From: an uncultured Mycoplasma sp.
GTDB taxonomy: Bacteria; Bacillota_I; Bacilli_A; RF39; UBA660
Reading direction: 5' to 3'
Length of the DNA: 41,379 bases
NCBI GenBank assembly: GCA_947642635.1
Contig: CANRTI010000010.1
Location: 1-41,379 of the forward strand
Shown: piece by piece, positions 485-12,904 of the stretch
Numbering within the stretch: the stretch's first letter is position 1
Layout of the letters: the number at the start of each line of letters is the position of its first letter
The notes under the pieces: generated by a model
What the model was told of the DNA's origin: nothing
Databases searched by the model: none
What the model saw: the letters and a program-made list of their open reading frames with translations, nothing else
Position numbers and translations under genes: made by a program

Positions 485-590
485 TAGTCGTGTTGATAGC
501 CTAGTGGACACACCCAACCCCATCCCGAACTTGGAAGTTAAGCACTAGAACGCCGAAAATAGTGTATGCGAAGATAGGAAAATGCGACTA
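485..590 (+). rRNA. rrf: 5S rRNA, complete, carried inside the element
   Basis: Complete 106-nt 5S gene. The terminal stem TAGTCG/CGACTA (485-490/585-590) extends by two G-U pairs. Helix II is CTAGTG/CACTAG (501-506/543-548) and helix III is CCAA/TTGG (514-517/531-534). The conserved CCCATCCCGAAC and GAAGTTAAGCAC segments are intact and an eight-T run follows. Compared with the split host 5S, helix II differs by a compensated T-A to C-G pair, and helix III is replaced on both strands (CTCT/AGAG to CCAA/TTGG). It lies between attL and the integrase, so it belongs to the element, and it is probably transcribed by read-through from the rrn operon. Confidence 0.9.
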
Positions 591-640
591 TTTTTTTTGA
601 TTAAAAAAGACTAAATCTTCAAAAATTTAGTCTTATTTTT
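591..640. terminator. Bidirectional terminator between 5S and integrase
   Basis: A T8 run directly follows the 5S. Then comes a 9-bp stem, AGACTAAAT (608-616) with ATTTAGTCT (625-633). It is followed by TATTTTT on the + strand and by TTTTTT on the - strand, so it can end both the rRNA transcript and the leftward integrase transcript. Confidence 0.75.
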
Positions 641-1871
641 ATGTCATTTTGCCGGTAGGTGTCTCACTAGGTGTCTCACTTTTTTCTTTCTTTTCTTCAA
701 ATTGAGTACGGAGACTAGTTATTTCATTAGCAAGATTTATCTTTCGTTCTTCGTACATATGCCCATATTCATTACTAGTTGTTCTTATATCTTTATGTCT
801 TAACCTTACCTTTACATCTTCCAATGTCTTACCCATATTAATTAGAAACGCTGCGTGGCTATGTCTTAATTTATGTGGCGTAATATTTTTCTCGATTCCT
901 GCCCGTTTTAAATACTTTTTAAGCATATCTTGAATCGCCCTACTACCAATTACTTCACATTTACCTCTATTATTAGCAAATAGGTATCTACTAGTGATAT
1001 TATGTTTTTTCCTATATTCCAGAAAGTCTTTATATGCTTCAACTGTAATATCATCAAGATATAAGTCATCCATTGACTCATCAGTTTTAGCATATGGTCT
1101 AATTTTACCATTATAATATGTTTCAGTAATATTTAAAGATGTACCTTTCTCTGTAGTTACTATACTATCTATTGAAAGTCCTAGTAGTTCACTAATTCTT
1201 AAACCTGTATAAAATAATAACTGTATTATAAACAAATCTCTAGTGTTATCAACAACAGAAAGTAAGTTTATAAACTCATCAGAAGTAAGATAGGGTTGTT
1301 TTTTCTTATTTTTCTTAAAGTTTTTAACAACTGCTGCTGGGTTATATGTAATTAACTTCTTTCTAACACAATAATTAAGAAAAGCAGATAACTGCTTATG
1401 TATTTTAATAAGTGTTTGATTCGCTAATTTTTTATCTTTTTCTCGTGAGCAAGGCATAGATAATAAATCATTGTGAAATTTAGTAATATGTTCTTCTGTA
1501 ATCGTAGCAATTTTAACATTGCCTAACTTTGGTAGTATTTGATTTTTAAATATTGTCTTTTTTCCTTCAACTGTAGATTCTGCTAAATTTCCTTTTCTTA
1601 CTTCAAGTTCGCATTCTTTAATGTAAGAATCAAACACATCTTTAAAAAGTTCAGTTTTTGTAGGCCGGCTATTTTCTTGTTGCAATTTAACTCGTTCTTC
1701 TGCAATAAAGTTTTGTGCTTCCTTTATTGTTTTAAAATTGGCTTTTCTTCTTTTAAATCTTTTATTATATATCTTATCATATAAGTTTAGACTTACTGCA
1801 TAAGTACCATTACTATTATGCTTATAAATATAAGGATAACTAGTTTTCGTGTAATTCTCTTTATTAAACAT
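639..1871 (-). CDS. int: Tyrosine recombinase / integrase
   Basis: 410-aa phage/Tn916-type integrase that would cut and rejoin the 5S att core. An N-terminal arm-binding region (about 1-70) and a SAM-like core-binding domain (about 75-185) precede the catalytic domain. Catalytic residues are visible: R225 (TGLRISELLG), K262, H333-x-x-R336 (HKLRH), H359 (LRHK) and nucleophile Y369 (NEYGH). The start is chosen from the upstream AGGAG about 10 nt before ATG. The last codons (SETPSETP) are encoded by the tandem arm-type repeat at 656-679, so gene and binding site overlap. Integrase next to one attachment end is the usual arrangement. Confidence 0.95.
   Translation of the reverse strand: MFNKENYTKTSYPYIYKHNSNGTYAVSLNLYDKIYNKRFKRRKANFKTIKEAQNFIAEERVKLQQENSRPTKTELFKDVFDSYIKECELEVRKGNLAESTVEGKKTIFKNQILPKLGNVKIATITEEHITKFHNDLLSMPCSREKDKKLANQTLIKIHKQLSAFLNYCVRKKLITYNPAAVVKNFKKNKKKQPYLTSDEFINLLSVVDNTRDLFIIQLLFYTGLRISELLGLSIDSIVTTEKGTSLNITETYYNGKIRPYAKTDESMDDLYLDDITVEAYKDFLEYRKKHNITSRYLFANNRGKCEVIGSRAIQDMLKKYLKRAGIEKNITPHKLRHSHAAFLINMGKTLEDVKVRLRHKDIRTTSNEYGHMYEERKINLANEITSLRTQFEEKKEKSETPSETPTGKMT
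656..679. repeat. Arm-type integrase sites, left: tandem 12-bp repeat
   Basis: Two perfect tandem copies of TAGGTGTCTCAC (656-667 and 668-679) lie inside the 3' end of int. Near-identical tandem units lie just inside the right end (12706-12729), and an inverted copy of the core follows at 12765-12774. Paired short repeats at both ends, distinct from the core, are the expected pattern for arm-binding sites of tyrosine integrases. Confidence 0.7.
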
Positions 1872-1908
1872 TAATTAAAACTCCTATCTTTTATAATTTT
1901 GAAATTTG

Positions 1909-1917
1909 TGCTATAAT
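1909..1917 (+). promoter_or_regulatory. Extended -10 promoter of the putative small RNA
   Basis: TGcTATAAT (1909-1917) is a full extended -10 element. The same TGcTATAAT stands before the tmRNA (15526-15534), the leftward gene at 10929 and the leftward gene at 12129, so it is a credible promoter form in this genome. The -35 is poor. Expected start is near 1924, reading rightward, antisense to the int leader. Confidence 0.65.
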
Positions 1918-1923
1918 AGGAGT

Positions 1924-2012
1924 ACAGAAAAAAAGTTGTTCTTAAGCCGAATTAATTTTTTATTCTGTACGCTTTATAGCGTTTGGCTAGTGTTGGTAGC
2001 ACTAGCTTTTTT
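1924..2012 (+). ncRNA. Putative ~90-nt antisense small RNA controlling the element
   Basis: It is bounded by the extended -10 promoter and by a strong intrinsic terminator (1985-2017). Predicted stems: ACAGAA/TTCTGT enclosing a ~33-nt loop (outer palindrome GTACAGAA 1922-1929 with TTCTGTAC 1963-1970), ACGCT/AGCGT (1969-1973/1978-1982), and the terminator hairpin. The loop contains 1935-1963, whose reverse complement occurs exactly at 2612-2640 in the xis/rep leader, so the RNA could form 29 continuous base pairs with that mRNA. It is also fully antisense to the leader of int. No ORF is seen in it. Expression is inferred, not shown. Confidence 0.6.
1935..1963 (+). repeat. 29-bp perfect inverted repeat, left arm
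   Basis: This is the exact reverse complement of 2612-2640 over 29 bases, beginning GTTGTTCTTAAGCC. The two arms flank the XRE repressor gene and its promoters. The leftward repressor/int transcript and the rightward xis/rep transcript therefore carry the same 29-nt sequence, in each case upstream of the recombination gene. Confidence 0.9.
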
Positions 2013-2017
2013 ATTTT
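1985..2017 (+). terminator. Intrinsic terminator of the small RNA
   Basis: 7-bp perfect stem GCTAGTG (1986-1992) / CACTAGC (2000-2006), extendable by a G-U pair, with a 7-nt loop, followed by TTTTTTATTTTT. On the opposite strand no T run follows, so leftward transcripts from the repressor could pass into int. Confidence 0.85.
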
Positions 2018-2367
2018 TAATTATCAATAATATTAACCGTATTTAAAATATATTTTTTTCCTTCAAGACTTAATTTCGATAATCTAGTCATAATCTCTAA
2101 CATTATTTTATTATCTTCCGAGTTGTCTATTATACCCATAATTTTACTTATATCTTGTTCTTCAGTAAGCATTAATGGTGATATATCTAATTTTTCTGCA
2201 AGTTTTTTTATTTTTTCAGGTTTAGCATAGCAAATACCTCTTTCATAATCTCTTAGAGTAGTGTAAGCAATTTCAGATTTTTTTGCTAGTTCTTTGGTAG
2301 TCATTCCTTTTATTGTCCTATAGTATCTAAGATTATTACTAAATACTTCTCGTTTTTTATTTATCAT
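2017..2367 (-). CDS. XRE-family HTH repressor (element master regulator)
   Basis: 116-aa Cro/CI-type protein. A helix-turn-helix spans about residues 8-62 (LRYYRTIKGMTTKELAKKSEIAYTTLRDYERG). The C-terminal tail is short and has no peptidase domain, so induction would be through a binding partner rather than RecA cleavage. The start ATG at 2367 is chosen because GGAGGTGT lies 5 nt upstream; an upstream in-frame start gives 10 more residues but no ribosome site. The gene is divergent from the xis/rep operon and faces four similar operators (2392-2512), the layout of a lysogeny switch. It probably represses the rightward promoter and regulates itself. Confidence 0.85.
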   Translation of the reverse strand: MINKKREVFSNNLRYYRTIKGMTTKELAKKSEIAYTTLRDYERGICYAKPEKIKKLAEKLDISPLMLTEEQDISKIMGIIDNSEDNKIMLEIMTRLSKLSLEGKKYILNTVNIIDN

Positions 2368-2391
2368 AATACACCTCCAACGATATAATAA

Positions 2392-2512
2392 TACCATAAA
2401 ATATGGTAAAATTCAATATACAAAAGCTTGAAAGTATTATAAAATATGTAAAATTAAATAAGAATACGATAAAATACGTAATAAAGTGTTGACAATACGA
2501 TAAAACACGGTA
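2392..2512. promoter_or_regulatory. Array of four repressor operators
   Basis: Four copies of a TACnATAAAATAyGGTA-like site: 2392-2408 (perfect dyad TACCATA-AAA-TATGGTA), 2434-2450, 2465-2480 and 2496-2512. The last lies in the spacer of the rightward promoter and touches its -10. The first lies just upstream of the repressor gene. Assignment to the adjacent XRE protein is inferred from position. Confidence 0.75.
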
Positions 2513-2516
2513 TAAT
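2489..2516 (+). promoter_or_regulatory. Rightward promoter of the xis/rep operon
   Basis: TTGACA (2489-2494), 16-bp spacer, TATAAT (2511-2516): both hexamers are perfect consensus. The expected start is near 2523. Operator 2496-2512 fills the spacer, so bound repressor would block polymerase directly. The transcript begins with a hairpin (TCAGC/GCTGA near 2527-2546). Confidence 0.9.
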
Positions 2517-2573
2517 AGAAGACATATCAGCCCAAACTGTAGCTGATTATATGAAATGAAAGGAGAGTATATT

Positions 2574-2615
2574 ATGAGATTAACCTTAAGGAATCTTAGG
2601 CAAGGCCACGGATAA
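2574..2615 (+). CDS. 13-codon leader peptide upstream of xis
   Basis: ATG at 2574 with a strong site AAGGAGAG about 6 nt upstream encodes MRLTLRNLRQGHG and stops at 2613-2615. The stop codon lies at the beginning of the 29-nt inverted-repeat arm (2612-2640), and the ORF covers a small hairpin (CCTTAAG with CTTAGG). A translated short ORF directly before a pairing target suggests that ribosome position affects RNA pairing or attenuation. Translation is inferred from the ribosome site alone. Confidence 0.55.
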   Translation: MRLTLRNLRQGHG

Positions 2616-2640
2616 AAAATTAATTCGGCTTAAGAACAAC
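2612..2640 (+). repeat. 29-bp perfect inverted repeat, right arm (small RNA target in leader)
   Basis: Exact reverse complement of 1935-1963. It lies in the 5' leader of the xis/rep mRNA, overlapping the leader-peptide stop and ending 11 nt before the GGAGGG ribosome site of xis. It is therefore a good site for RNA-RNA control of translation or transcript stability. Confidence 0.9.
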
Positions 2641-2662
2641 ATACTAAAATTGGAGGGAAAAG

Positions 2663-2833
2663 ATGAATAGTATTATGTTTGATATTAAAGAGTGTTCTAG
2701 TTACTTGAATATCTCGGTTGCGCTTTTACGCAAGTTGATAAGAAAAAATGAAATTCCCTATAATAGAATAGGGGCTAAACTTCTATTCTCAAAAATTGAG
2801 ATAGATAGATGGTTGAAAGAAAACCAAAATTAG
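2663..2833 (+). CDS. xis: AlpA/excisionase-like MerR-type HTH protein
   Basis: 56-aa protein beginning MNSIMFDIKECSSYLNIS. A winged-helix pattern of the HTH_17/excisionase family follows: a helix-turn-helix (SYLNISVALLRKLIRK), then IPYNRIGAKLLFSKIEIDRWL. Such proteins serve as recombination directionality factors or replication activators in small elements. GGAGGG lies 6 nt before the ATG. It is the first full gene after the rightward promoter and is followed 13 nt later by the next gene. It was found by reading the sequence; the family call rests on pattern. Confidence 0.8.
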   Translation: MNSIMFDIKECSSYLNISVALLRKLIRKNEIPYNRIGAKLLFSKIEIDRWLKENQN

Positions 2834-2846
2834 AAAGGAATTTATT

Positions 2847-3377
2847 ATGAATAAAAAATTAAATGAATCATATGTAACCGAAGTTGATGGAGACAAAACC
2901 CTAAATCTAGTTAATCATCTAGTGTTCATAACTAAAGATGAAGTAACTATATCTAGTCTATATGGAATTTTTGTAGATATAACTCTTACTAAAATAGATG
3001 TGTTAAAAGTTTCTAGATTTATTAGCGAAAATTACCCAAAATTCTCAACACTAAAATTGGAGAATGCAGAATTTGAAATATCCAAAGAATGGATAGTAAT
3101 TAAGAGTGGTTGTAAAAAGATACAAATACGCCCTGAAATGTTTGAAAAAGTAATCATACATATTGAAGAAAGGGAGAAAAAAATTATGGAGGGTAGCAAT
3201 GCTACTCAAGAAGTTTATAATAAAATTATAAACGCTACCACTAATCAAAACAATAATAAACCTAGTGAAGCAAAATCAATTACAACAGGACAAATGCAAA
3301 TTAAAAAAACTATCTATGATACTGTCATAGATACTATAGAAAAAACTAATTTAGGAGGAAATAAAAATGGAAAATAA
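2847..3377 (+). CDS. Hypothetical protein of the element's rightward operon
   Basis: 176-aa soluble protein with no recognised motif. The first ~115 residues look like a compact alpha/beta domain (LVFITKDEVTISSLYGIFVDITLTK). The tail is rich in N, T and K (ATTNQNNNKPSEAKS). It has a good ribosome site (GAAAGGA) and overlaps the next gene by 11 nt, so the two are probably translationally coupled. By position, between excisionase and replication helicase, it may be a replication or regulatory accessory, but nothing in the sequence proves this. Confidence 0.75.
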   Translation: MNKKLNESYVTEVDGDKTLNLVNHLVFITKDEVTISSLYGIFVDITLTKIDVLKVSRFISENYPKFSTLKLENAEFEISKEWIVIKSGCKKIQIRPEMFEKVIIHIEEREKKIMEGSNATQEVYNKIINATTNQNNNKPSEAKSITTGQMQIKKTIYDTVIDTIEKTNLGGNKNGK

Positions 3378-3708
3378 TTTGAACGAAGAAAGAATACAAA
3401 GATTTGGAGAAATAACGGTGCTTGATATAGATAAGAAAATAGAGGGTGGTTATATTAGGATATGTAATGAAGATGATTATATAAATAGTATAATAGTATC
3501 TATTTACGAAATAAGGAGTTTATCCGTTTTATCATCTATCTATCATTATGTCTCTATTGATACTGAAGATAATTCATTTAGGTATAATGATAAAACTATT
3601 GAAATATATGGCCCACTTGTAGGGTTAATATTTACAAGACAAGATTTTATGGCATTTGGCGATTATATTTATGAATTAGTAAATGGAGACCCTGCATATG
3701 GAGAATAA
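3367..3708 (+). CDS. Hypothetical protein upstream of the replication helicase
   Basis: 113-aa acidic protein without recognisable motifs. It starts inside the end of the previous gene with AGGAGG about 7 nt upstream of the ATG, and its last 11 nt overlap the start of the helicase gene. Tight overlaps on both sides indicate a single operon under the repressed rightward promoter. Function unknown. Confidence 0.75.
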   Translation: MENNLNEERIQRFGEITVLDIDKKIEGGYIRICNEDDYINSIIVSIYEIRSLSVLSSIYHYVSIDTEDNSFRYNDKTIEIYGPLVGLIFTRQDFMAFGDYIYELVNGDPAYGE

Positions 3709-4867
3709 AAGTAGTAATGATACAGCAAGTATAAATAATATACTTGCTGAATTAAAAGTTGATTATAAAGACCTTAGTGTGCTTACAACTGAATCAGAAG
3801 AATTAAAGCTAGTAGATTATTACTTTGATAGTGTAACCTGCTCTAATAAAGAGGTAGAAACATTACTATATGAAATAATTGGATATAGTCTTTGTAGGAC
3901 AGCTAAGCTGAATAAGGCATTCATACTCCAAGGCCCTGGTCGCAACGGAAAATCCGTTATTTTCAGAATTATATCTGCAATTTTGAAAGATAACAAATGC
4001 TCATATGAGCATTTAGAAAACTTATCAGGGACTAAAGCAGGAGCTAAAACTACAGTTAAGGCCTTAAAAGGGTGTACAGTTAATATAGCAGAGGACCAAA
4101 AACAGCCGAATTATATTAATTCTTCGATAATTACTCGGTTAATATCGGGAGAGCCTATATCTATTAAAGCAAAGGGTAATGAGCAAGAGGTATTAGAACC
4201 TTATGCAACATTGCTGTTTTCAGTAAATGAAGTAATTGACTTCAAAGAGACAGGGCTTTTTATAACGGACCGTTTCATTGTAATACCATTTCGGGCTACA
4301 TTCACTGATAGCAATAATAATAGAAATATTAACATAGGAGAAGAATTATGTCAACCTCTAGCGTTGCAGATTATAGCAACTAAGGCCATTGAAGCGTTTA
4401 AGAAAGTGCTAGAGAATGGTAGATTTACTATACCTGATGTCGTAGCAGAAGCAACTAGAAACTACTTCATGGAATGTAATAATGTTGCAGAGTTTTGCAA
4501 TTTATATCCAATAAAGACAATTATAATTAAGGCAAAATATTATGAAGAATATCGCAAATGGTGTAAATATAATAATAAGGAAGCTGTTAGCAACTCAATA
4601 TTTGGGAAAGAGGTTTTAGCTCTAGGGTATAGGGCCGAAAGATACTCATTTGCTAATAAAAGAGAAACTTACTATGCTTCTCCAAAATTTAATAATGTTG
4701 ATAGTAGGGATATTTATAATGAATATCTTAGTAAAAATGGAATCACGGAAGAATCAGCAAAACATTATGATGAAAAAGTTTTAAAAGAAACATTTGGAGC
4801 AATTCCTTTTAGTGATTATTTATGCGAAAGCATTTATAATAAGACTGATGAAATTGAAAATGCTTAA
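3698..4867 (+). CDS. SF3 (D5/P4-like) replication helicase, no primase domain
   Basis: 389-aa superfamily 3 helicase of the phage/plasmid primase C-terminal type. Walker A is GPGRNGKS (79-86), the Walker B-like segment is VNIAEDQ (about 128-134), motif C is FSVNE (about 174-178), and an arginine-finger region TDRFIVIPFRATF follows. The N-terminal archaeo-eukaryotic primase domain of full P4/D5 proteins is absent; only ~75 residues precede Walker A. A C-terminal DUF5906/winged-helix-type tail is likely. ATG 3698 is preferred over 3683 because GGAG lies 9 nt upstream. It probably drives replication of the excised element, with host primase recruited separately. Confidence 0.88.
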   Translation: MENKSSNDTASINNILAELKVDYKDLSVLTTESEELKLVDYYFDSVTCSNKEVETLLYEIIGYSLCRTAKLNKAFILQGPGRNGKSVIFRIISAILKDNKCSYEHLENLSGTKAGAKTTVKALKGCTVNIAEDQKQPNYINSSIITRLISGEPISIKAKGNEQEVLEPYATLLFSVNEVIDFKETGLFITDRFIVIPFRATFTDSNNNRNINIGEELCQPLALQIIATKAIEAFKKVLENGRFTIPDVVAEATRNYFMECNNVAEFCNLYPIKTIIIKAKYYEEYRKWCKYNNKEAVSNSIFGKEVLALGYRAERYSFANKRETYYASPKFNNVDSRDIYNEYLSKNGITEESAKHYDEKVLKETFGAIPFSDYLCESIYNKTDEIENA

Positions 4868-5327
4868 ATGTTTTACAATGTCCCTGTGAGCCTCTAGTAG
4901 GCTCTAGGGGAAGTCTTATTATATAGGGCGTAAAAAATTTTGTAAATATAGATATGCCCCTGTAGGACTTATAGAAGCCCCTAGAGGGGTTTTATTATGG
5001 AATTGTCCTATGCCACTATGGCAGAGGGATAAGTGAATCTTTGTACAGTTATTCTTAAATACATTTTTCCATTATAAAAGTACGAAGTACTTTTATAAGT
5101 GTATCAATTAAAGATACATTTCACAAAAAAAACGCAATGCGTTAGATACTTGATTAGATGTTAAAAAAAAGGGTGCTCTTATATCTATTTAACATCTAAA
5201 AATTATACTAACACAATGCGTTATACCTAAATATATACTTAGTGAATAAGGTAGATTCTTTAAAAGGTAAATCAGACCATAAGAAAACTATAGGTATTAC
5301 ACTATAGTTAGTTCTTACATAATTTTT
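4868..5327. other. Hairpin-rich non-coding region, possible replication origin (left part)
   Basis: No convincing gene. Stem-loops in order: TCCCT-GAGCCT/AGGCTC-AGGGA (4881-4910), CCCC/GGGG (4978-4989) followed by TTTTATT, TGCCA/TGGCA (5011-5023), a 12-bp perfect stem TTATAAAAGTAC/GTACTTTTATAA with a GAA loop (5072-5098), TGTATC/GATACA (5100-5118), palindrome AACGCAATGCGTT (5131-5143), and an 11-bp stem TAGATGTTAAA/TTTAACATCTA (5155-5198). The first two may terminate the rep operon. The cluster directly downstream of a replication helicase is a reasonable candidate origin. Confidence 0.5.
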
Positions 5328-6706
5328 GAGAGTGTAAAAAATTCTGTGTAAATAGTCTAACCATGATAATTGAAGCAATCTACTGCTTCTTTTTTTGTTA
5401 CTTAAATAATAACATATAATATTAAATTTTCAAAGAACTAAATTCTACCATCAAACATAATTGATAGTTCTCCTAAAATCATATCCCAGTTTCTATATCT
5501 ACTGGTCCATTTTTTCATGATATTTTGAGTAGCTAAATATAAACATTTCATTAAAGATTCATCAGTTGGAAATACTGCTTTAGTCTTAGTATACTTTCTA
5601 AAACATCTATTTAATGATTCAATAGTATTGGTGGTATACATGATTTTTCTTAAGTCTTCAGAATAACTAAAGAATGGACATATAGCATCCCAATTTTCTT
5701 CCCAATTTTTAAGTGACGTAGGATATTTATTTTGCCATTTTGTCTTCACTTTTTGTAATTGTTCATATCCTTCTTTCTCATTCTTAGATGTATATATTGT
5801 TTTTAAATCATTACAAAATGATTTCATATCTTTATAATAAACAAATCTAACTGAATTTCTTATCATATGGACAATGCATCTTTGTTGAATTGTATTTGGA
5901 TAAGCTGTTTCTATTGCTTGTTTAATTCCTGTTAATCCATCACTACACATTATTAATATGTCTTTTACTCCTCGTTGTTTTAAATCGTTAAATACACTTA
6001 ACCAAAATTTAGCTGATTCATTTTCTCCGATCCATATTCCTAAAATATCTTTTTCTCCTTCATCTGTAACTCCTAAAACTATATAAGCTGCTTTTTTTAC
6101 TACTGTATTTTCTTCTCTTACACTAAAATGTACTGCATCTATAAATACTATTGGATAAATACTATTTAAAGGTCTATTTTGCCATTCTTTTATTTTGGGT
6201 AGTATTTGATCGGTTATATTACTTACCATTGTTGCTGATACTTCTATACCATATAAATCCTGTATTTGTTCATTTATTTCTCTTGTTGATAATCCTCGAC
6301 CATACAATGATATTATTTTATCTTCTATACCTGAAACATCTCGCTTATTTTTAGGTACTATCTTTGGGTCAAATTCTCCATTTCTATCTCTTGGTGTTGA
6401 AAACTCAAATTCTCCAAATTCACTTTTTAATGTTTTCTTACTAGTTCCATTTCTATAATTAGTTTTATCTATTTTTTTATCATATTTAGAATATCCCATA
6501 GAGCTTTCAAATTCTGCATTCATCATTTCTTGTAATGAATCTTTAAATAAATCTTTTATTGCACTTGATAAATCTTGTGCTGTTTCTATTTCATAATTTT
6601 CTTGTAATATTTTTAATAATTCTTTTCCTTTATTCATATAAAAAATCCTTCCATTTCTATTTTATCATGGAAAGATTCTTATTTACACAGATTTATTTAC
6701 AGACTC
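5328..6706 (-). mobile_element. IS256-family insertion sequence
   Basis: Terminal inverted repeats: left 5328-5355 and right 6679-6706, matching at 23 of 28 positions by eye, both starting GAG and sharing TCTGTGTAAATA. One transposase gene lies between. The length of ~1.38 kb fits the family. Flanks 5320-5327 (TAATTTTT) and 6707-6714 (ATATTTTT) agree at only 6 of 8 positions, so a target duplication is not proven. A hairpin with T run at 5372-5396 lies inside the left end. The IS interrupts the non-coding region between the converging rep and clpP operons. Confidence 0.85.
5438..6637 (-). CDS. IS256-family (mutator-type) DDE transposase
   Basis: 399-aa full-length transposase. The DDE triad is visible: D167 (VFIDAVHF), D233 (MCSDGLTG) and E340 (NTIESLNR), with the CxxH motif (C254-H257) and a C-terminal segment ending in WDMILGELSIMF typical of the family. 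GGAAGGA precedes the ATG. No frameshift or stop is seen, so it is probably active. It is accessory to the island and not part of its control system. Confidence 0.96.
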   Translation of the reverse strand: MNKGKELLKILQENYEIETAQDLSSAIKDLFKDSLQEMMNAEFESSMGYSKYDKKIDKTNYRNGTSKKTLKSEFGEFEFSTPRDRNGEFDPKIVPKNKRDVSGIEDKIISLYGRGLSTREINEQIQDLYGIEVSATMVSNITDQILPKIKEWQNRPLNSIYPIVFIDAVHFSVREENTVVKKAAYIVLGVTDEGEKDILGIWIGENESAKFWLSVFNDLKQRGVKDILIMCSDGLTGIKQAIETAYPNTIQQRCIVHMIRNSVRFVYYKDMKSFCNDLKTIYTSKNEKEGYEQLQKVKTKWQNKYPTSLKNWEENWDAICPFFSYSEDLRKIMYTTNTIESLNRCFRKYTKTKAVFPTDESLMKCLYLATQNIMKKWTSRYRNWDMILGELSIMFDGRI

Positions 6707-7338
6707 ATATTTTTAGTTAATTATTTTTTTCTTACGCTATTTTAACTTATTACATTTCGAATCTCATTATTTTTTTAATTACTATTATTCATTTAACTAT
6801 TACTTTTTAATCATATTTTTCATTCTTTTTCATTATTAGTATTATCATATCTTTTAGTATCATTTGTTTTTTAATTATTACTTATATTGTTTAAATTACT
6901 TATTGCGTAGTCAAGAGAAATTTTAGTCCCAAAATACTATAAATCTCTCTTTTAAATTTTAATATCTACATTATTAAATAACTACGGCTAGATAAATTAA
7001 CGGTCTGAGTTCCATTGTGTTGCCACAAGTGTTCAGTATGACGGTTAAGGTAGACTTTATTCTTATTCAGATTAGGGCTGATAAGAGAATTACTCCTAAA
7101 TTGTTCCGTATCTAGCATGAGCAAGTTTTTTAAGTATTACAATAAAGTAATAGTTGGGACATTATCTCTACTTGGGTCCTTTTTTAAAATGTAGAATCTG
7201 GTATTCTTGAACTTACCATAATAATATATACGAACTTAATAACTCGGTATAGTACTTAACCTTATAATTCTATACGAAGTACATAGTGTTCCGTTTACTA
7301 AAATATATTGGAATTTCACTATGCCACTATACCAGATA
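6707..7338. other. Non-coding region between IS and clpP (right part of split intergenic)
   Basis: AT-rich sequence without a convincing gene. A leftward ORF of 49 codons (about 7119 down to 6970; contains TEHLWQHNGTQTVNL) has no ribosome site and could be a remnant. Two short repeats are shared with the region left of the IS, in reverse order: TACGAAGTAC (5081-5090, 7273-7282) and CTATGCCACTAT (5008-5019, 7319-7330). Before IS insertion this and 4868-5327 formed about 1.1 kb between convergent operons. Confidence 0.45.
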
Positions 7339-7929
7339 TTATATTAGGTTTTTGGTTAGCATTTTGTCGCCTAAGCCATATTTTAGTGCTTCTTCTGCAT
7401 TGAACCATCTATCCTTTAACTGAATGTCGTGTCTAACTTGCTTTATGGTCTTTCCTGTGTTCTCTGCTAATAGTTTAATGATACGCTCATTCAATGTATT
7501 AGTATGTTCATAATCAATTTTTAACTCGCCAACTTTTCCCATATTAAAAGATGAAACTTCGTGAATCATAACCTCACTATTAGGGGTTATATATCGTTTG
7601 CCTTTTGTTCCACCACTAAGAAGCACAGCAGCCATTGAAGCACAACGACCTATACATATTGTCTTCACATCACTTTTGACCATTTGCATAGCATCATAAA
7701 TAGCCATTCCTGCTGATACTGAACCACCTGGGGAATTGATATAGAATATTATATCCTTTTTACTTTTAATAGTATCTAGTTTTAACAACTGGTCGACTAT
7801 ATTTTCTGCAACTTCTGCATCAATGGTTTTATTCAAACGAATTATGCGATTATCAAATAAATTAACATTTGAGGGAGTTTTAGATTTGGTTTCTTTCTTA
7901 GTTTTCTTTTTTGCTTTATTATTAGCCAT
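7339..7929 (-). CDS. ClpP-like serine protease, element-borne
   Basis: 196-aa ClpP/crotonase-fold protease. The catalytic triad is visible: S98 (GRCASMAAVLL), H123 (MIHEVSS) and D173 (LKDRWFNAEEAL). INSPGGSVSAGMAIYDAM (about 64-81) forms the oxyanion and substrate region. A lysine-rich extension (about 20 residues) replaces the usual N-terminal axial loop, so interaction with a ClpX/ClpC ATPase is not assured. ClpP-like enzymes in phages often serve as prohead proteases, but no capsid genes are present here. It is the last gene of a leftward trio (ssb, hydrolase, clpP) with 15-nt spacings, implying co-expression. Confidence 0.9.
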   Translation of the reverse strand: MANNKAKKKTKKETKSKTPSNVNLFDNRIIRLNKTIDAEVAENIVDQLLKLDTIKSKKDIIFYINSPGGSVSAGMAIYDAMQMVKSDVKTICIGRCASMAAVLLSGGTKGKRYITPNSEVMIHEVSSFNMGKVGELKIDYEHTNTLNERIIKLLAENTGKTIKQVRHDIQLKDRWFNAEEALKYGLGDKMLTKNLI

Positions 7930-7944
7930 TTTCTTAATTCCTTT

Positions 7945-9132
7945 CTATATATTATAAGTCTTTTTGTTCTTTAAATGTTTGGTTTTGTATGGTAGATTCA
8001 ACTTTTCAAAATCGTGTGAATTTTCTCCGTGTATTGGTATTATTACACTAGGTTTAACAATATTACAGACTTCTGTAATACCTTCTTTAGTTGCGTGTCC
8101 ACTGGTGTGTAAGTAATGGTAATCTTTTGGAACAAACTTAACAATACTTTCATCAGCAGTAGATCCTTGCAAGTATCCTAGCCATTGAGAATAGATAAAT
8201 ATATTATCTTTGAAGTTAGGGCTGTTAATAAACCTTTTTGAAAAGTAATTACTTCGGACTAGCATACAAAAACCATTATCCAGCATTTCTTGATAAAACT
8301 TTTTATCAAAACTCTTAGCATTTGAAAAGTTATAATAGTCTTTATATTTTTTGCTAGTCTTTGTTACATAATCAAGTATCTCCTTTTGGTAGACATCACA
8401 TATAAATAACTTTCTTCCTGCTTCTTCGTTTGCGTGGTAAAAAGAGGCTATCCTGTCAATATTAGTAGAAGCACACATTATAAATACATACTTATTATTC
8501 TTTATTAGGTCAGCTGCTTCTTTCTGTAGCATTAGTTCGGACATAAAAACCTCATCAAGTCTTGAAAGGGTAGTATGCTCACAAATAAGGACATCAACTT
8601 TGCCTATTTCCTTAAGTGTTTTAGGTATTGCATTCTCACTAGGACCGTGTGTACGAAAGTCCCCAGTATGTAAAACTCTTTTACCTTCTGCCTCTATAAG
8701 AAACATATAACTATCAAAAGCCGAATGGTCTACTCGAATCGGAGTTAAAGTCATATCTCCAACTTTTAGAGGCACATCTTGTTCAAATGTTTTAAAAGTC
8801 TCTAATCTATCAATATGTTCTTGTGTTACTTCTGCAATGCTAGGCTCTTTCATTTTCTTTTGATAAATAGTAAAAATCTCTTTTGCTTGTTCTCCAATGT
8901 AGATAGGAATATCCTTTTTTACTTGCATATATTCGCCAATATGGTCTAAATGATAATGAGTTATAAAAACAGCATCACATTTTTTACTAATCTTAGCGAC
9001 ATTCACTTTTACTTTACTTGTACTATTTGGAAGATTAGAGCCTACATCAATAAGTATCCTCGTATTTTTAGTTTTGATTTCGGTTACACAACCACCAATT
9101 TGATTAATACCCCTGTGAATTTTAATTTGCAT
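7945..9132 (-). CDS. MBL-fold beta-CASP hydrolase (RNase J-like nuclease)
   Basis: 395-aa metallo-hydrolase. Zinc ligands: H59-x-H61-x-D63-H64 (HYHLDHIG), H136 (VDHS) and D158 (LHTGDFR). beta-CASP motifs: ICEHTTLS (E185), TSGHATKEG (H346) and PIHGE (H368). This is the RNase J/CPSF73 architecture without the C-terminal RNase J extension, so RNA or DNA 5' exonuclease/endonuclease activity is the best guess. It sits between clpP (15 nt) and ssb (15 nt). An SSB-protease-nuclease trio in a mobile element suggests processing of nucleic acid in replication or phage interference, but this is inference. Confidence 0.88.
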   Translation of the reverse strand: MQIKIHRGINQIGGCVTEIKTKNTRILIDVGSNLPNSTSKVKVNVAKISKKCDAVFITHYHLDHIGEYMQVKKDIPIYIGEQAKEIFTIYQKKMKEPSIAEVTQEHIDRLETFKTFEQDVPLKVGDMTLTPIRVDHSAFDSYMFLIEAEGKRVLHTGDFRTHGPSENAIPKTLKEIGKVDVLICEHTTLSRLDEVFMSELMLQKEAADLIKNNKYVFIMCASTNIDRIASFYHANEEAGRKLFICDVYQKEILDYVTKTSKKYKDYYNFSNAKSFDKKFYQEMLDNGFCMLVRSNYFSKRFINSPNFKDNIFIYSQWLGYLQGSTADESIVKFVPKDYHYLHTSGHATKEGITEVCNIVKPSVIIPIHGENSHDFEKLNLPYKTKHLKNKKTYNI

Positions 9133-9147
9133 AAGATATTATCCTTT

Positions 9148-9459
9148 CTAACTTTGAGTTGCTAGTTTTTTGTTATTTGATAAGAATGTTATTCTTTCAG
9201 CTATTACAGAAATTCGATTCTCATTGCTTTGTATTCTGCCTTTAGCACCTATTAAGTCGCCTTTTTTGCAATATTGAAGTACATTACTTCCTATATAACT
9301 CATTAACTCAATAGGAACTAAATCCGTTTCATATTCTCCATTTTCATTTTTAAAATTACGACTAATTTTTAGCATTAGTCTATATGAAGTCTTCTCCTCA
9401 TTTTCCATTTTTTCAATATCGTTGTTTATTCTGCCAATAAGCACAACATTATTCATCAT
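9148..9459 (-). CDS. ssb: Single-stranded DNA-binding protein, short
   Basis: 103-aa OB-fold SSB: begins MMNNVVLIGRI, with an RLMLKISRNF strand and the GAKGRIQS segment that replaces the usual VEGRLQ. It lacks the glycine-rich linker and acidic DDDIPF tail of housekeeping SSB, so it probably cannot recruit the usual tail-binding partners. AAGGT precedes the ATG; either of two adjacent Met codons may be used. First gene of the leftward ssb-hydrolase-clpP operon; likely coats element DNA during replication. Confidence 0.88.
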   Translation of the reverse strand: MMNNVVLIGRINNDIEKMENEEKTSYRLMLKISRNFKNENGEYETDLVPIELMSYIGSNVLQYCKKGDLIGAKGRIQSNENRISVIAERITFLSNNKKLATQS

Positions 9460-9482
9460 TGTTTTACCTTCTTTCTAGCATA

Positions 9483-9504
9483 CTAGTAATTTACATATTA
9501 CTAG
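9483..9504. promoter_or_regulatory. Dyad upstream of ssb
   Basis: 8-bp inverted repeat CTAGTAAT/ATTACTAG separated by 6 bp, 24 nt upstream of the ssb start. Its position suggests an operator for the leftward ssb operon. A half-site TACCATA like the repressor operators lies about 20 bp further upstream (near 9520). Regulator unknown. Confidence 0.4.
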
Positions 9505-9549
9505 CATCTAATAATAAAATACCATAATTACTTTTTTAAATCGTAATAC

Positions 9550-9583
9550 AAAATAAAAAGAGAGACTGCTTAGTACAGTCTCT
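9550..9583 (-). terminator. Terminator after the RsgI-like gene
   Basis: 8-bp stem AGAGACTG/CAGTCTCT (9561-9568/9576-9583). Read leftward it is followed by CTTTTTATTTTG, so it ends the transcript of the gene stopping at 9601 and separates it from the ssb operon. Confidence 0.75.
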
Positions 9584-9600
9584 AATACTATTTACTATTT

Positions 9601-10929
9601 TTAATTATTTGCATTTCCATAAAACATTTCATATTCTTTATTTATTTGTTCCTCTGTTTTGTCTTCTTTTGGAAAGTCTTTCATTGATTCTCCTCCTACG
9701 TTGTTATCATCTAGCATTCGAATATCTCCTGTTTTATAAGTGCCATTTACTAAATTGAGTTTATTAAGTGGTAATACATAAAAATGATTTCCTTCCAAGA
9801 GAGTATCTCCCATATTACCGTTTGACATATTAATACATCCGTTACATTCATTGTTACCATAACTAAAATTAGTAACAGTTCGATAAGAACCAGAAATATA
9901 CATACTACTTAAATAAACTTTATCAATACCTAAAAGCTCTCCACCTTCAACTCCACTACTTTTATACAGAATATCAAATTTATCACACACTTTCATCAAT
10001 TCTTGATAACCATCTAAGATTTCTAATAAATTTGTTAAATCTTGAGGTTGTCCTATCTTTTGAAATAATTTGGTGGTTATATAGCACTCTAATTTTCCGT
10101 TATCAAAATTACAAGTATAGTTTTTTCCATAATCTTTATCTTTTTTATAAGTTTCAAATAATTTTTCAGCATAACTTTTTTCATTATTAAAATATTCTTG
10201 TTCTTTTTCATCTATAATTTCATTTTTATATTTATTCTCTATTTCTTCGGTTATTTTTTCATATGTTACATATGAGATATTATCTACTTTTTCCTTTATT
10301 TTTTCGTTTTGACTAAATATTTTAACTCCATTATTAACATTAATTCCTTTATCACGAGCAGTATCATATAAAGTTTCAATAGCATCATTTATGGCTTTAT
10401 CTTTTATATCAACTGCATTAAATACATTTTTGCAATCTTCATTTAAACAAGTAAAATTATTAATTTGATTTCCTTTTAACTCTATCAATAATCTAGGGTT
10501 GATTTCAACAATAACATAAGAAATTTCATCTTGTTTTGTTTTTTGCAAATTACTTAAAAACTTTTGATGATTATATCTATCAAGATTAATTTTACCTATA
10601 TATAATAGTCCTAAAATAAAGAAGAATAAAATAATTTTTCTAAATAATTTCAAACTATGTTTAAATTCAATGACATATATTTTCTTATCATCATTTTTAA
10701 TATCTAATGGTCTTATGAATTTTGTTTTTTTACCTAACCTATTTTTTAGAATATCAAAATTATCTAGTTCGTATTTATTTTTTACTTTTACTTTTTTTTC
10801 TTTAGTTCCATTACTAATTATTACTTTCTTATCTATATCTTCAATAATATTTTCTTTTGATACATAAATACATTTTTTTCTTTTTCTGACTTTTTTATAA
10901 GTGACTTCATCTAATATAATTTTCTTCAT
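9601..10929 (-). CDS. Membrane protein with RsgI-like anti-sigma middle domain
   Basis: 442-aa single-pass membrane protein. A basic cytoplasmic region (1-96) is followed by one membrane helix (about 97-112) and a large extracytoplasmic part. Residues about 138-205 (VEINPRLLIELKGNQIN...LNEDC...AVDIKDKAINDAIETL) resemble the conserved segment of RsgI-type anti-sigma factors (DINPSIEL, then NxDG). The rest is Lys/Glu-rich, followed by a Gly/Asn-rich segment with CxxC (ECNGC). No cognate sigma factor lies nearby. An extended -10 promoter precedes it (10976-10984). The domain resemblance is by eye; the role in the element is unknown. Confidence 0.65.
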   Translation of the reverse strand: MKKIILDEVTYKKVRKRKKCIYVSKENIIEDIDKKVIISNGTKEKKVKVKNKYELDNFDILKNRLGKKTKFIRPLDIKNDDKKIYVIEFKHSLKLFRKIILFFFILGLLYIGKINLDRYNHQKFLSNLQKTKQDEISYVIVEINPRLLIELKGNQINNFTCLNEDCKNVFNAVDIKDKAINDAIETLYDTARDKGINVNNGVKIFSQNEKIKEKVDNISYVTYEKITEEIENKYKNEIIDEKEQEYFNNEKSYAEKLFETYKKDKDYGKNYTCNFDNGKLECYITTKLFQKIGQPQDLTNLLEILDGYQELMKVCDKFDILYKSSGVEGGELLGIDKVYLSSMYISGSYRTVTNFSYGNNECNGCINMSNGNMGDTLLEGNHFYVLPLNKLNLVNGTYKTGDIRMLDDNNVGGESMKDFPKEDKTEEQINKEYEMFYGNANN

Positions 10930-10975
10930 ATTGTACCTCTATAATTTTAATTTTATTGCTCCATCTATGTTAATA

Positions 10976-10984
10976 ATTATAGCA
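10976..10984 (-). promoter_or_regulatory. Extended -10 promoter of the RsgI-like gene
   Basis: Read leftward: TGcTATAAT, about 45 nt upstream of the ATG, which is preceded by GAGGTAC. Same form as the tmRNA promoter. Confidence 0.6.
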
Positions 10985-11014
10985 TAAATTTTTCACTTCT
11001 CTCATACATATTAA

Positions 11015-11833
11015 TTAATCTTTATCTCTAAGATTTTTTAATGCTGTATCTTTGTCTGGGTTTATAGAACGATAATGGGACATTCTATCAGCTGTTTCTT
11101 GATAAGCATACCATATAGTTTCGCTTTCATAATAGTCTATAATATGTTTATTAGTTGTAGTGCATTTTACAAGAATTATTTCATCATCTGTTTTTTCTTT
11201 TGCTTTACATTTTAATTCGTTTGATGTAACATCAGGCTCAAAAGCTAAAGTTAAAACACTCTTAGGAATTTCTTGTAATGCGTATCGTTCGGCTTCATAT
11301 CCACCTTCTATACGACCACCATTACTACACATATTAACGAAAATAATTATTAGTACTATTATTGAAATTATACCACTAATTACTTTCAAAATATCGGGCT
11401 TATCTGAACTATTTTCATCTTGATTTGATGTTTTTTGCGTTATAGGTTCTGTCGATTGCTTAATTTCTGTTTTTTTATTATTTGTATCTCTAATTGTTGC
11501 ATTCCTCTCTAATTTTCTTTCATTTTCTTTTAGATTATTGTTTTCATAGTTAGGTATGCTTTCGTTAGAATCTCTTTTGTTTTGCCTAGTAATACTATTC
11601 AATAACTCTAAAAGTTGTTTATCCTTTGCAATATTAAGTTCTATTGGGTTACCTCCAAATTTAACAATAGATAATACTTGGTTTTCTTCATCAAAGTTGT
11701 AACTTTTAATATTAGAGTAGGGAATTTTGATAAGTTGGTCGTTGGTAGTTACTGCAAAACTATCATCTTTGATTTTTAGTATAGCTTCTTCTTTATTTGC
11801 TCCATTTAATAGAGTAGCGTTTAACTTTCGCAT
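11015..11833 (-). CDS. Membrane protein with N-terminal PH-like domain
   Basis: 272 aa. Residues 1-80 look like a small PH/GRAM-type beta domain (ATLLNGANKEEAILKIKDDSFAVTT...IPYSNIKSYNFDEE). A polar Asn/Lys/Glu linker (85-145), one membrane helix (about 149-168) and a ~100-residue outer domain with two cysteines follow. It starts 2 nt after the stop of the upstream GRAM gene, so the two are co-transcribed. Element-specific function unknown; the PH assignment is tentative. Confidence 0.65.
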   Translation of the reverse strand: MRKLNATLLNGANKEEAILKIKDDSFAVTTNDQLIKIPYSNIKSYNFDEENQVLSIVKFGGNPIELNIAKDKQLLELLNSITRQNKRDSNESIPNYENNNLKENERKLERNATIRDTNNKKTEIKQSTEPITQKTSNQDENSSDKPDILKVISGIISIIVLIIIFVNMCSNGGRIEGGYEAERYALQEIPKSVLTLAFEPDVTSNELKCKAKEKTDDEIILVKCTTTNKHIIDYYESETIWYAYQETADRMSHYRSINPDKDTALKNLRDKD

Positions 11834-11835
11834 CT

Positions 11836-12129
11836 TTAACCCTCCAAATTTTTAATTGCATTATTGATAGCAACAACCCAGTCTTTTTTTCCAGTAACTG
11901 CAAACACATCTTTACCAGTATTAGTTATAATTGTTAAATTGTTTGATAAAAAACCACCAGCTTCTACACTTTTGATATTTTCCAATTCAACTTCAAATTC
12001 TTTCTTTCCAGCATTAACTTTATGTCCTTCAAAATAAAGTGTTTCATTTGTTAAAATTAAATGCCCACCTTTACTTCCAATTCCATGAAACCAATTAGCT
12101 GCACCTTTTTTTAAAATTTCTTCTTTCAT
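11836..12129 (-). CDS. GRAM/PH-like domain protein
   Basis: 97 aa, a single GRAM-like domain: GGHLILTNETLYFEGHK, then the strand ELENIKSVEAGGFLSNNLTI and a C-terminal helix DWVVAINNAIKNL. ATG 12129 is selected because AGGAGGAG lies 6 nt upstream; a longer in-frame form starting at 12189 would run through the promoter. First gene of a leftward pair. Soluble GRAM proteins bind lipids or partner proteins; here no partner can be named. Confidence 0.75.
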   Translation of the reverse strand: MKEEILKKGAANWFHGIGSKGGHLILTNETLYFEGHKVNAGKKEFEVELENIKSVEAGGFLSNNLTIITNTGKDVFAVTGKKDWVVAINNAIKNLEG

Positions 12130-12154
12130 AAATTTACTCCTCCTATACTCCAAT

Positions 12155-12184
12155 ATTATAGCATAATTAAGATATTTTTCACAA
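12155..12184 (-). promoter_or_regulatory. Promoter of the GRAM/PH gene pair
   Basis: Read leftward: TTGTGA (12184-12179), 18-bp spacer, TGcTATAAT with -10 at 12160-12155. It is followed by the ribosome site and ATG at 12129. Confidence 0.65.
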
Positions 12185-12197
12185 TACATTTTAAGTA

Positions 12198-12291
12198 AAT
12201 AACTTAAAATAATTAAGTTATTCGTTTATGGTTAAAAAGTCTTATTTCGGGGATAATTATTACTGAGATTTACTAAGTACATAACTTAGTA
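12198..12291. promoter_or_regulatory. Two palindromic operators between divergent genes
   Basis: Inverted repeat AATAACTTA/TAAGTTATT with 7-bp gap (12198-12222), and TACTAAGT/ACTTAGTA with 5-bp gap (12271-12291), sharing the half-site core ACTTA. They lie between the leftward GRAM gene and the rightward XRE gene at 12305; the second nearly touches its ribosome site, consistent with autoregulation. Confidence 0.55.
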
Positions 12292-12304
12292 TAGGAGGGC
12301 TACA

Positions 12305-12607
12305 ATGAATTATACCGACAAAGAGAAGAAAGACCTATTAACTTTAATAGGTATGAATATCAATTACTATCGTTATCATTGCAATAACACTAAAATAATG
12401 AATGAAAAAGGTTTTGTTACTATTGAAAGACTTGCAGAGGAAATAGACAGCAGTCCTAATATGCTCTATAACCTCACAGCCAAGAATGTAGAGCAAGGTG
12501 TATCAGTAGTGTTCCTTGATAGATTGGCTCGTGCCTTGAATGTTAGTTTATATTGTTTCTTTTTAAATACTCCAATACAAAACCCTCCAAAATATTCTAA
12601 ACAATAA
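12305..12607 (+). CDS. XRE-like HTH DNA-binding protein near the right end
   Basis: 100 aa with a Cro/CI-like helix-turn-helix (VTIERLAEEIDSSPNMLYNLTAKNVEQGVSVVFLDRLARALNVSLYCFF, about 39-88). AGGAGG lies 7 nt upstream of the ATG. Two palindromes precede it and are candidate operators. It is oriented outward toward attR and is distinct from the repressor at 2017. It may control the cargo genes to its left. Confidence 0.82.
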   Translation: MNYTDKEKKDLLTLIGMNINYYRYHCNNTKIMNEKGFVTIERLAEEIDSSPNMLYNLTAKNVEQGVSVVFLDRLARALNVSLYCFFLNTPIQNPPKYSKQ

Positions 12608-12705
12608 AACAATTAAAATATTAATAATTAATATAATAAATATGATATAATTAAGTATAAATAATTAATAACATATATTATTTAAAAAATGTTAACAGAA
12701 ATTAA

Positions 12706-12774
12706 CAGGTGTCCCAAAAGGTGTCTCAAAATCTAAAATAAAGTATAATAAATTAGAATATTTTAGGACACCTT
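12706..12774. repeat. Arm-type integrase sites, right end
   Basis: Tandem 12-bp units CAGGTGTCCCAA (12706-12717) and AAGGTGTCTCAA (12718-12729), similar to the left pair at 656-679. An inverted copy AGGACACCTT lies at 12765-12774. The spacing to attR (about 60-130 bp) fits arm sites of a tyrosine integrase. The stretch 12608-12705 is AT-rich with nothing else recognisable. Confidence 0.7.
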
Positions 12775-12835
12775 CAAAAAATTAAAAACCACGATAAAAT
12801 AAGGCGTAACAAGATGTGATAATAGTAGAAAGAGT

Positions 12836-12904
12836 CCATCCCGAACAGAGAAGTTAAGCACTAATACGCCGACGATAGTGTATGCGAAAATAGGAAGTTG
12901 CCAA
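12836..12904 (+). pseudogene. rrf: 5S rRNA 3' half, displaced (attR junction)
   Basis: The 16-bp core (12836-12851) is followed by a normal 5S 3' half: GTTAAGCACTAA with helix II strand CACTAA (12859-12864), the ACGCC...GATAGTGTATGCGAAAATAGGA arm, and terminal strand GTTGCCAA (12897-12904), then T9. The terminal and helix II strands pair with the 5' fragment at 384-403, not with the intact 5S at 485-590. This identifies it as the other half of the split host gene. It has no 5' half and no promoter, so it is inert. Confidence 0.9.

Follow-up and report, generated by a model that had tools for sequence, protein, structure and literature searches.

The window, the whole 41,379-nt stretch of DNA analyzed here, hosts an integrated satellite-like element that is inserted at the 3′ end of a 5S rRNA gene, and it raises the question of what a short predicted RNA encoded beside the integrase gene (int) has to do with a perfectly complementary sequence in front of the excisionase gene (xis). 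Comparative sequence analysis indicates that this ~90-nt RNA is very probably self-transcribed and acts in trans as an antisense repressor of xis translation, forming part of a two-layer lock on excision. The features on which the argument rests are collected in Table 1. The pair of cores that marks the ends of the element also bounds a relative in L038 (571 and 10224). The early promoter of xis and of the primase/helicase gene (rep) is embedded among repeated ATACGATAAAA motifs, which are likely operators. A truncated 5S-like copy lies ahead of the full 5S rRNA gene (380-438 versus 483-541, 73% alike over 59 nt), and similar half copies precede the 5S gene in several relatives (G083, G192, G090, and G343). 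Within the presumed element (568-12901), a 399-aa transposase ORF, IS256-like by eye, is found downstream of rep (5438-6637), and ClpP-like, RNase J-like (metallo-beta-lactamase), and SSB-like ORFs, an odd cargo for a satellite and likewise named by eye from the sequence, stand in a row on the minus strand (7339-9459).

Table 1. Features of the element, in window coordinates.
Feature	Position	Strand	Basis or remark
Left end, attL core GCGAAGATAGGAA	568-585	+	in 3′ end of 5S rRNA gene
Tyrosine integrase (int)	639-1871	-	
sRNA promoter TTTATA-16-TGcTATAAT, extended -10	1890-1917	+	promoter scan; -10 conserved across relatives
Putative antisense sRNA, ~90 nt	1922-2014	+	H1, H2, H3, and T tail
H1 specificity hairpin	about 1922-1970	+	
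Antisense arm in H1	1935-1963	+	
H2 small hairpin	about 1970-1982	+	
H3 terminator hairpin, then T tail	1985-2007	+	
CI-like HTH repressor	2017-2367	-	HTH_3; phage repressor PHROGs
Early promoter for xis/rep, TTGACA-16-TATAAT	2489-2516	+	12/12 consensus (promoter scan)
13-aa ORF (earlier "leader peptide")	2574-2615	+	truncated start of cro-like HTH gene
Target arm in xis leader	2612-2640	+	ends 12 nt before ribosome site
xis Shine-Dalgarno site GGAGGG	2652-2657	+	read from sequence
xis, 56-aa HTH excisionase	2663-2833	+	TIGR01764 above cut-off; HTH_17
ORF A, no assigned function	2847-3377	+	downstream of xis
ORF B, no assigned function	3367-3708	+	
P4-family primase/helicase (rep)	3683-4867	+	TIGR01613 above cut-off
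Probable right end, attR	12884-12901	+	3 mismatches to left core; then host tsaE-like genes

The original prediction placed a promoter and a strong terminator around a unit of ~90 nt, and this was borne out: the -10 hexamer ends at 1917, the H3 terminator is the sole terminator-like site on the plus strand across 1800-2750, and the predicted fold of the RNA (1922-2012) has a free energy of -30.6 kcal/mol with a z score of -5.3. The RNA starts 51 nt from the start codon of int, from which it diverges. The 5′ stem had been expected to present the whole 29-nt antisense arm in a loop; the arm does lie within H1, but only about 7 nt (UUAAGCC, about 1942-1948) form the open apical loop, and the remaining part is inside the stem, which must be invaded for pairing. 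Base pairing within the RNA is maintained in evolution: in an alignment of 40 sequences, both sides have changed in 24 of 28 pairs, and 93.8% of cells are paired. This alignment leans toward the structure because it was fitted to a covariance model. Shuffled controls never reached any of these measures, sliding the partner destroyed the signal, and an independent MAFFT alignment of 12 sequences contained 12 covarying pairs. No Rfam family matched the RNA at the gathering score, and nothing meaningful appeared at E values up to 1.

The antisense arm and the target arm are perfect complements over 29 nt, as predicted, and were recovered directly as an inverted repeat. They lie on the same strand, 648 nt apart, with the repressor gene between them. 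The 29-nt sequence has no other copy in the window or the genome, and none of 100 shuffles yielded a match to the repeat, not even when three mismatches were tolerated. Counted from the xis ATG, the duplex spans -51 to -23, within or beside the expected 30S footprint; it stops 12 nt upstream of the Shine-Dalgarno site and leaves the site itself uncovered, which we count against the proposed mechanism. Cofolding of the RNA with its target gives a gain of about 28 kcal/mol. The xis leader is otherwise unstructured and carries no plus-strand terminator in the terminator scan of 1800-2750. What had been called a leader peptide (MRLTLRNLRQGHG) does not stand as such: it matches the start of a cro-like HTH gene, which in relatives is full length (54-79 aa) and lies ahead of the target, and by sequence comparison it is a remnant of that gene. 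A second perfect complement of the RNA, 14 nt long (TTAATTTTTTATTC), coincides with the opening codons of ORF A (2849-2862) and may be an AT-rich chance match.

The RNA belongs to a family. When 386 genomes from the same bacterial family were searched at the DNA level, about a dozen loci with the sRNA region emerged, and a covariance model built from 12 of these loci detected the RNA in 33 of the 386 genomes and in 28 of 150 genera. When genomes were drawn at the order level, the RNA was found in 24 of 288, all from the same family; at the class level, the refined model found it in 5 of 395 genomes, every one again from this family. Hosts of the closest relatives, where named, are metagenome-assembled and mostly labeled "uncultured Bacilli". 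Carriers comprise satellites and apparent prophages, and several have phage genes (DNA polymerase, a Sak4-like annealing protein, a DnaD-like loader). Their integrases differ widely, and one that was tested (G369a) is a large serine recombinase. In nearly all elements the RNA starts 33 to 60 nt from the integrase start codon, divergently, and in most its terminator lies right against the stop codon of the neighboring opposite-strand gene, which in the close group is the repressor. Among viral contigs (IMG/VR), a pattern scan gave one genuine further member, L119. Single-protein searches with rep against genome contigs and viral contigs found no relatives, and phage and plasmid records searched at the DNA level likewise gave none; the rep alignment contained a single viral relative, L118, which is 22% identical and lacks the RNA, and the integrase alignment one weak viral relative, L117 (23% identity). 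As a carrier of the RNA, L117 was rejected (model match at E 0.016, with no convincing target), and the model match in G268 (L093), with neither integrase nor promoter, is probably false.

The H1 loop differs in nearly every element, and the downstream complement changes along with it. In a swap test of 41 elements, the scores of the loops with their own targets summed to 1521, compared with 1083 for permuted pairs (sd 25, maximum 1209, 20,000 permutations). Among 43 non-redundant elements, 32 had an own score of at least 32, whereas only 110 of 1806 swapped pairs did. Targets were taken as the best-scoring sites, and the swap controls address the resulting selection effect. Of the 32 matched sites, 31 are placed at a start codon (-60 to +27) that has a ribosome site, against a background of 23% for low-scoring swapped sites (p = 3e-19). 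Covariation of the two arms had been set beforehand as a refutation test, and compensating change was found: for the nine closest elements, compensatory changes on both sides are seen in 16 of the 30 columns of the duplex, with 235 of 270 cells paired, and G-U pairs occur in the loop-target duplexes across elements. In sequence, the RNA shows one mark of a trans-acting antisense sRNA, namely coevolving complementarity to the initiation region of a separate mRNA. For about nine of the 43 elements the DNA read contains no clear target, which counts against our explanation; some of these elements lie near contig ends, some may be orphans, and at least one is probably a false match. In G205a, the sRNA (L043, 2404-2496) has no target in the 11 kb downstream and its loop nearly matches the G083 target; it is possibly an orphan immunity RNA. 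The integrases of C058 and G090 are 87% and 73% identical to that of the window, and the two elements share one loop type, so loop specificity may move between lineages.

The start of the putatively regulated gene coincides with the target, overlaps it, or follows it directly. In the close group the target gene encodes an Xis of the window type, and the Xis of the window passes the excisionase family model TIGR01764; in the other elements target genes encode short HTH-like proteins. One of these resembles the ICEBs1 excisionase, with a match to NF047858 at E 1e-9 that stays under the curated cut-off; others give weak matches to excisionase families, and some have no family match. The target products are excisionase-like where their sequences are recognizable. 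In G372 (L042, coordinates oriented along the sRNA), a single loop has two initiation regions as partners, one for each half (about 10337-10353 and 10798-10816). One belongs to a gene similar to the other short targets, at its start, and the other to the D5 rep gene.

Structure, complementarity, coevolution, the position at translation starts, and the excisionase-type targets can all be read from the DNA; from them we infer that the RNA is expressed, that inhibition is the outcome of pairing, and that superinfection immunity may follow. In the mechanism that we propose, the open apical loop would nucleate pairing with the xis leader, and the AT-rich stem of H1 would then open to give the 29-bp duplex in front of the Shine-Dalgarno site. 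This duplex would block 30S loading and may also expose the message to RNase III. Xis would be kept low, and the downstream rep genes low by polarity, even if the early promoter were leaky, such that the RNA and the CI-like repressor would form a two-layer lock on excision and early replication. Because the RNA would work in trans, an incoming element of the same loop type should also be silenced. Both the coevolution and the conservation of the RNA family lend strong support to the earlier claim of an RNA antisense to the xis leader, and the repression itself is the part that we infer.

The RNA could instead pair with the leader and act by premature transcription termination of the early operon rather than on translation initiation. 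The closest phage-satellite analogue, the P4 CI RNA, works on a leader, the xis-rep operon is polycistronic, and Rho-dependent termination would be compatible with the sequence. However, the leader has neither an intrinsic terminator nor a stable structure, which disfavors attenuation as well as activation, and the targets overlap or closely flank ribosome sites and start codons, a placement that attenuation does not need. In some relatives the target is the Shine-Dalgarno site itself or the first codons, which also points to translation initiation, and we therefore consider termination unlikely. Less likely still is that the RNA mainly controls int, being antisense to the repressor-int transcript or titrated by it, with the xis match secondary. 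The divergent spacing to the integrase start is conserved, and the whole RNA is complementary to any repressor-int transcript, so that int mRNA could equally titrate the sRNA. The overlap alone, however, makes such complementarity unavoidable, which says nothing for selection; the overlap does not extend to the int ribosome site; and the site that the coevolving loop tracks is the separate one at xis. Hence, of the original suggestion that the RNA is antisense to the int leader and damps int, the antisense arrangement holds as geometry only, and no result here points to an effect on int.

Two further explanations were rejected. That the arms are a DNA-level feature, either the ends of an invertible segment around the repressor or repeated binding sites for the repressor or Xis, is suggested by perfect inverted repeats that flank a repressor gene beside a tyrosine recombinase, but it is highly improbable: the arms vary among elements while pairing is kept, with G-U pairs; the distance between them ranges from about 650 nt to more than 3,000 nt; a covarying hairpin always contains one arm, with the other located at a start codon; and no inverted arrangement occurs among the relatives read. 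We give even less credence to a type I toxin-antitoxin system, with the RNA acting as antitoxin against a small toxin gene. An antisense RNA opposite a short ORF on a mobile element would fit such a system, but the targets are soluble HTH or excisionase-like proteins, not hydrophobic peptides. Repression of xis translation remains the preferred reading, and because both sides change together in evolution, the element RNA with its target looks, at the level of sequence, like a genuine RNA lock on excision, one undescribed in the literature searched.

Its principle has precedents. The C4 RNA of P1/P7 serves phage immunity: its variable loops base-pair with a target at a distance, a ribosome site being partly covered by one of them, and it is released from a longer transcript through RNase P processing (PMC5320573). 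The present sRNA also has a variable loop, with its partner located at a ribosome site, but it has its own predicted promoter and terminator, lies beside int, and targets xis, and the C4 model (RF01695) did not match it at the gathering score or at E values up to 1. The P4 CI RNA is part of the same transcript as its target and acts by transcription termination. The sRNA is in contrast a separate unit with its own promoter and terminator, 650 nt from its target with the repressor gene between; a CI-like protein repressor is also present here, and the leader has no intrinsic terminator. Like this element, P4 is a small integrative satellite with a P4-family primase. Its CI RNA is complementary to leaders, as is the PLE IIR transcript to PLE leaders (PMC7567579). 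PLE IIR and RteR of CTnDOT are likewise RNAs of mobile elements, but their hosts and elements are unrelated. In plasmid pMV158, RNAII is encoded opposite its target and its complementarity is therefore automatic. Here, by contrast, the arms are separate, coevolving, and on the same strand, and the target is xis, not a plasmid rep. The two-layer likeness lies in the pairing of a transcriptional repressor, CopG, with a small RNA, RNAII, that inhibits translation of the key gene (PMC4485353). RteR represses transfer genes (PMC9299015). The consulted parts of these sources describe no int-adjacent, xis-targeting RNA family with varying loops for these systems, and neither this RNA nor any antisense RNA directed at xis turned up in the open-access papers searched. 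The original statement that no small element of this kind has been described therefore holds, within the searchable literature, for the RNA family and its xis target, but not for the principle of RNA immunity, known from P1/P7, P4, and pMV158.

Protein repressors are the usual explanation for excision control in mobile elements of the Gram-positive type, and RNA control of the excisionase would add a post-transcriptional layer to their lysogeny/excision switch. The family provides dozens of natural loop-target pairs with differing specificity and strong coevolution, which makes satellite and phage incompatibility and superinfection exclusion directly testable; the pairs are also candidate orthogonal translation repressors. 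Tentatively, and at slightly less than an even chance, we suggest a hypervariable RNA immunity code, in which the scaffold beside int is fixed, the loop diversifies with its xis/rep target, and the loop type sets mutual exclusion. If this is true, target-less copies such as that of G205a would act as immunity against other elements, and the loop type would decide which satellites and prophages of one bacterial family exclude each other.
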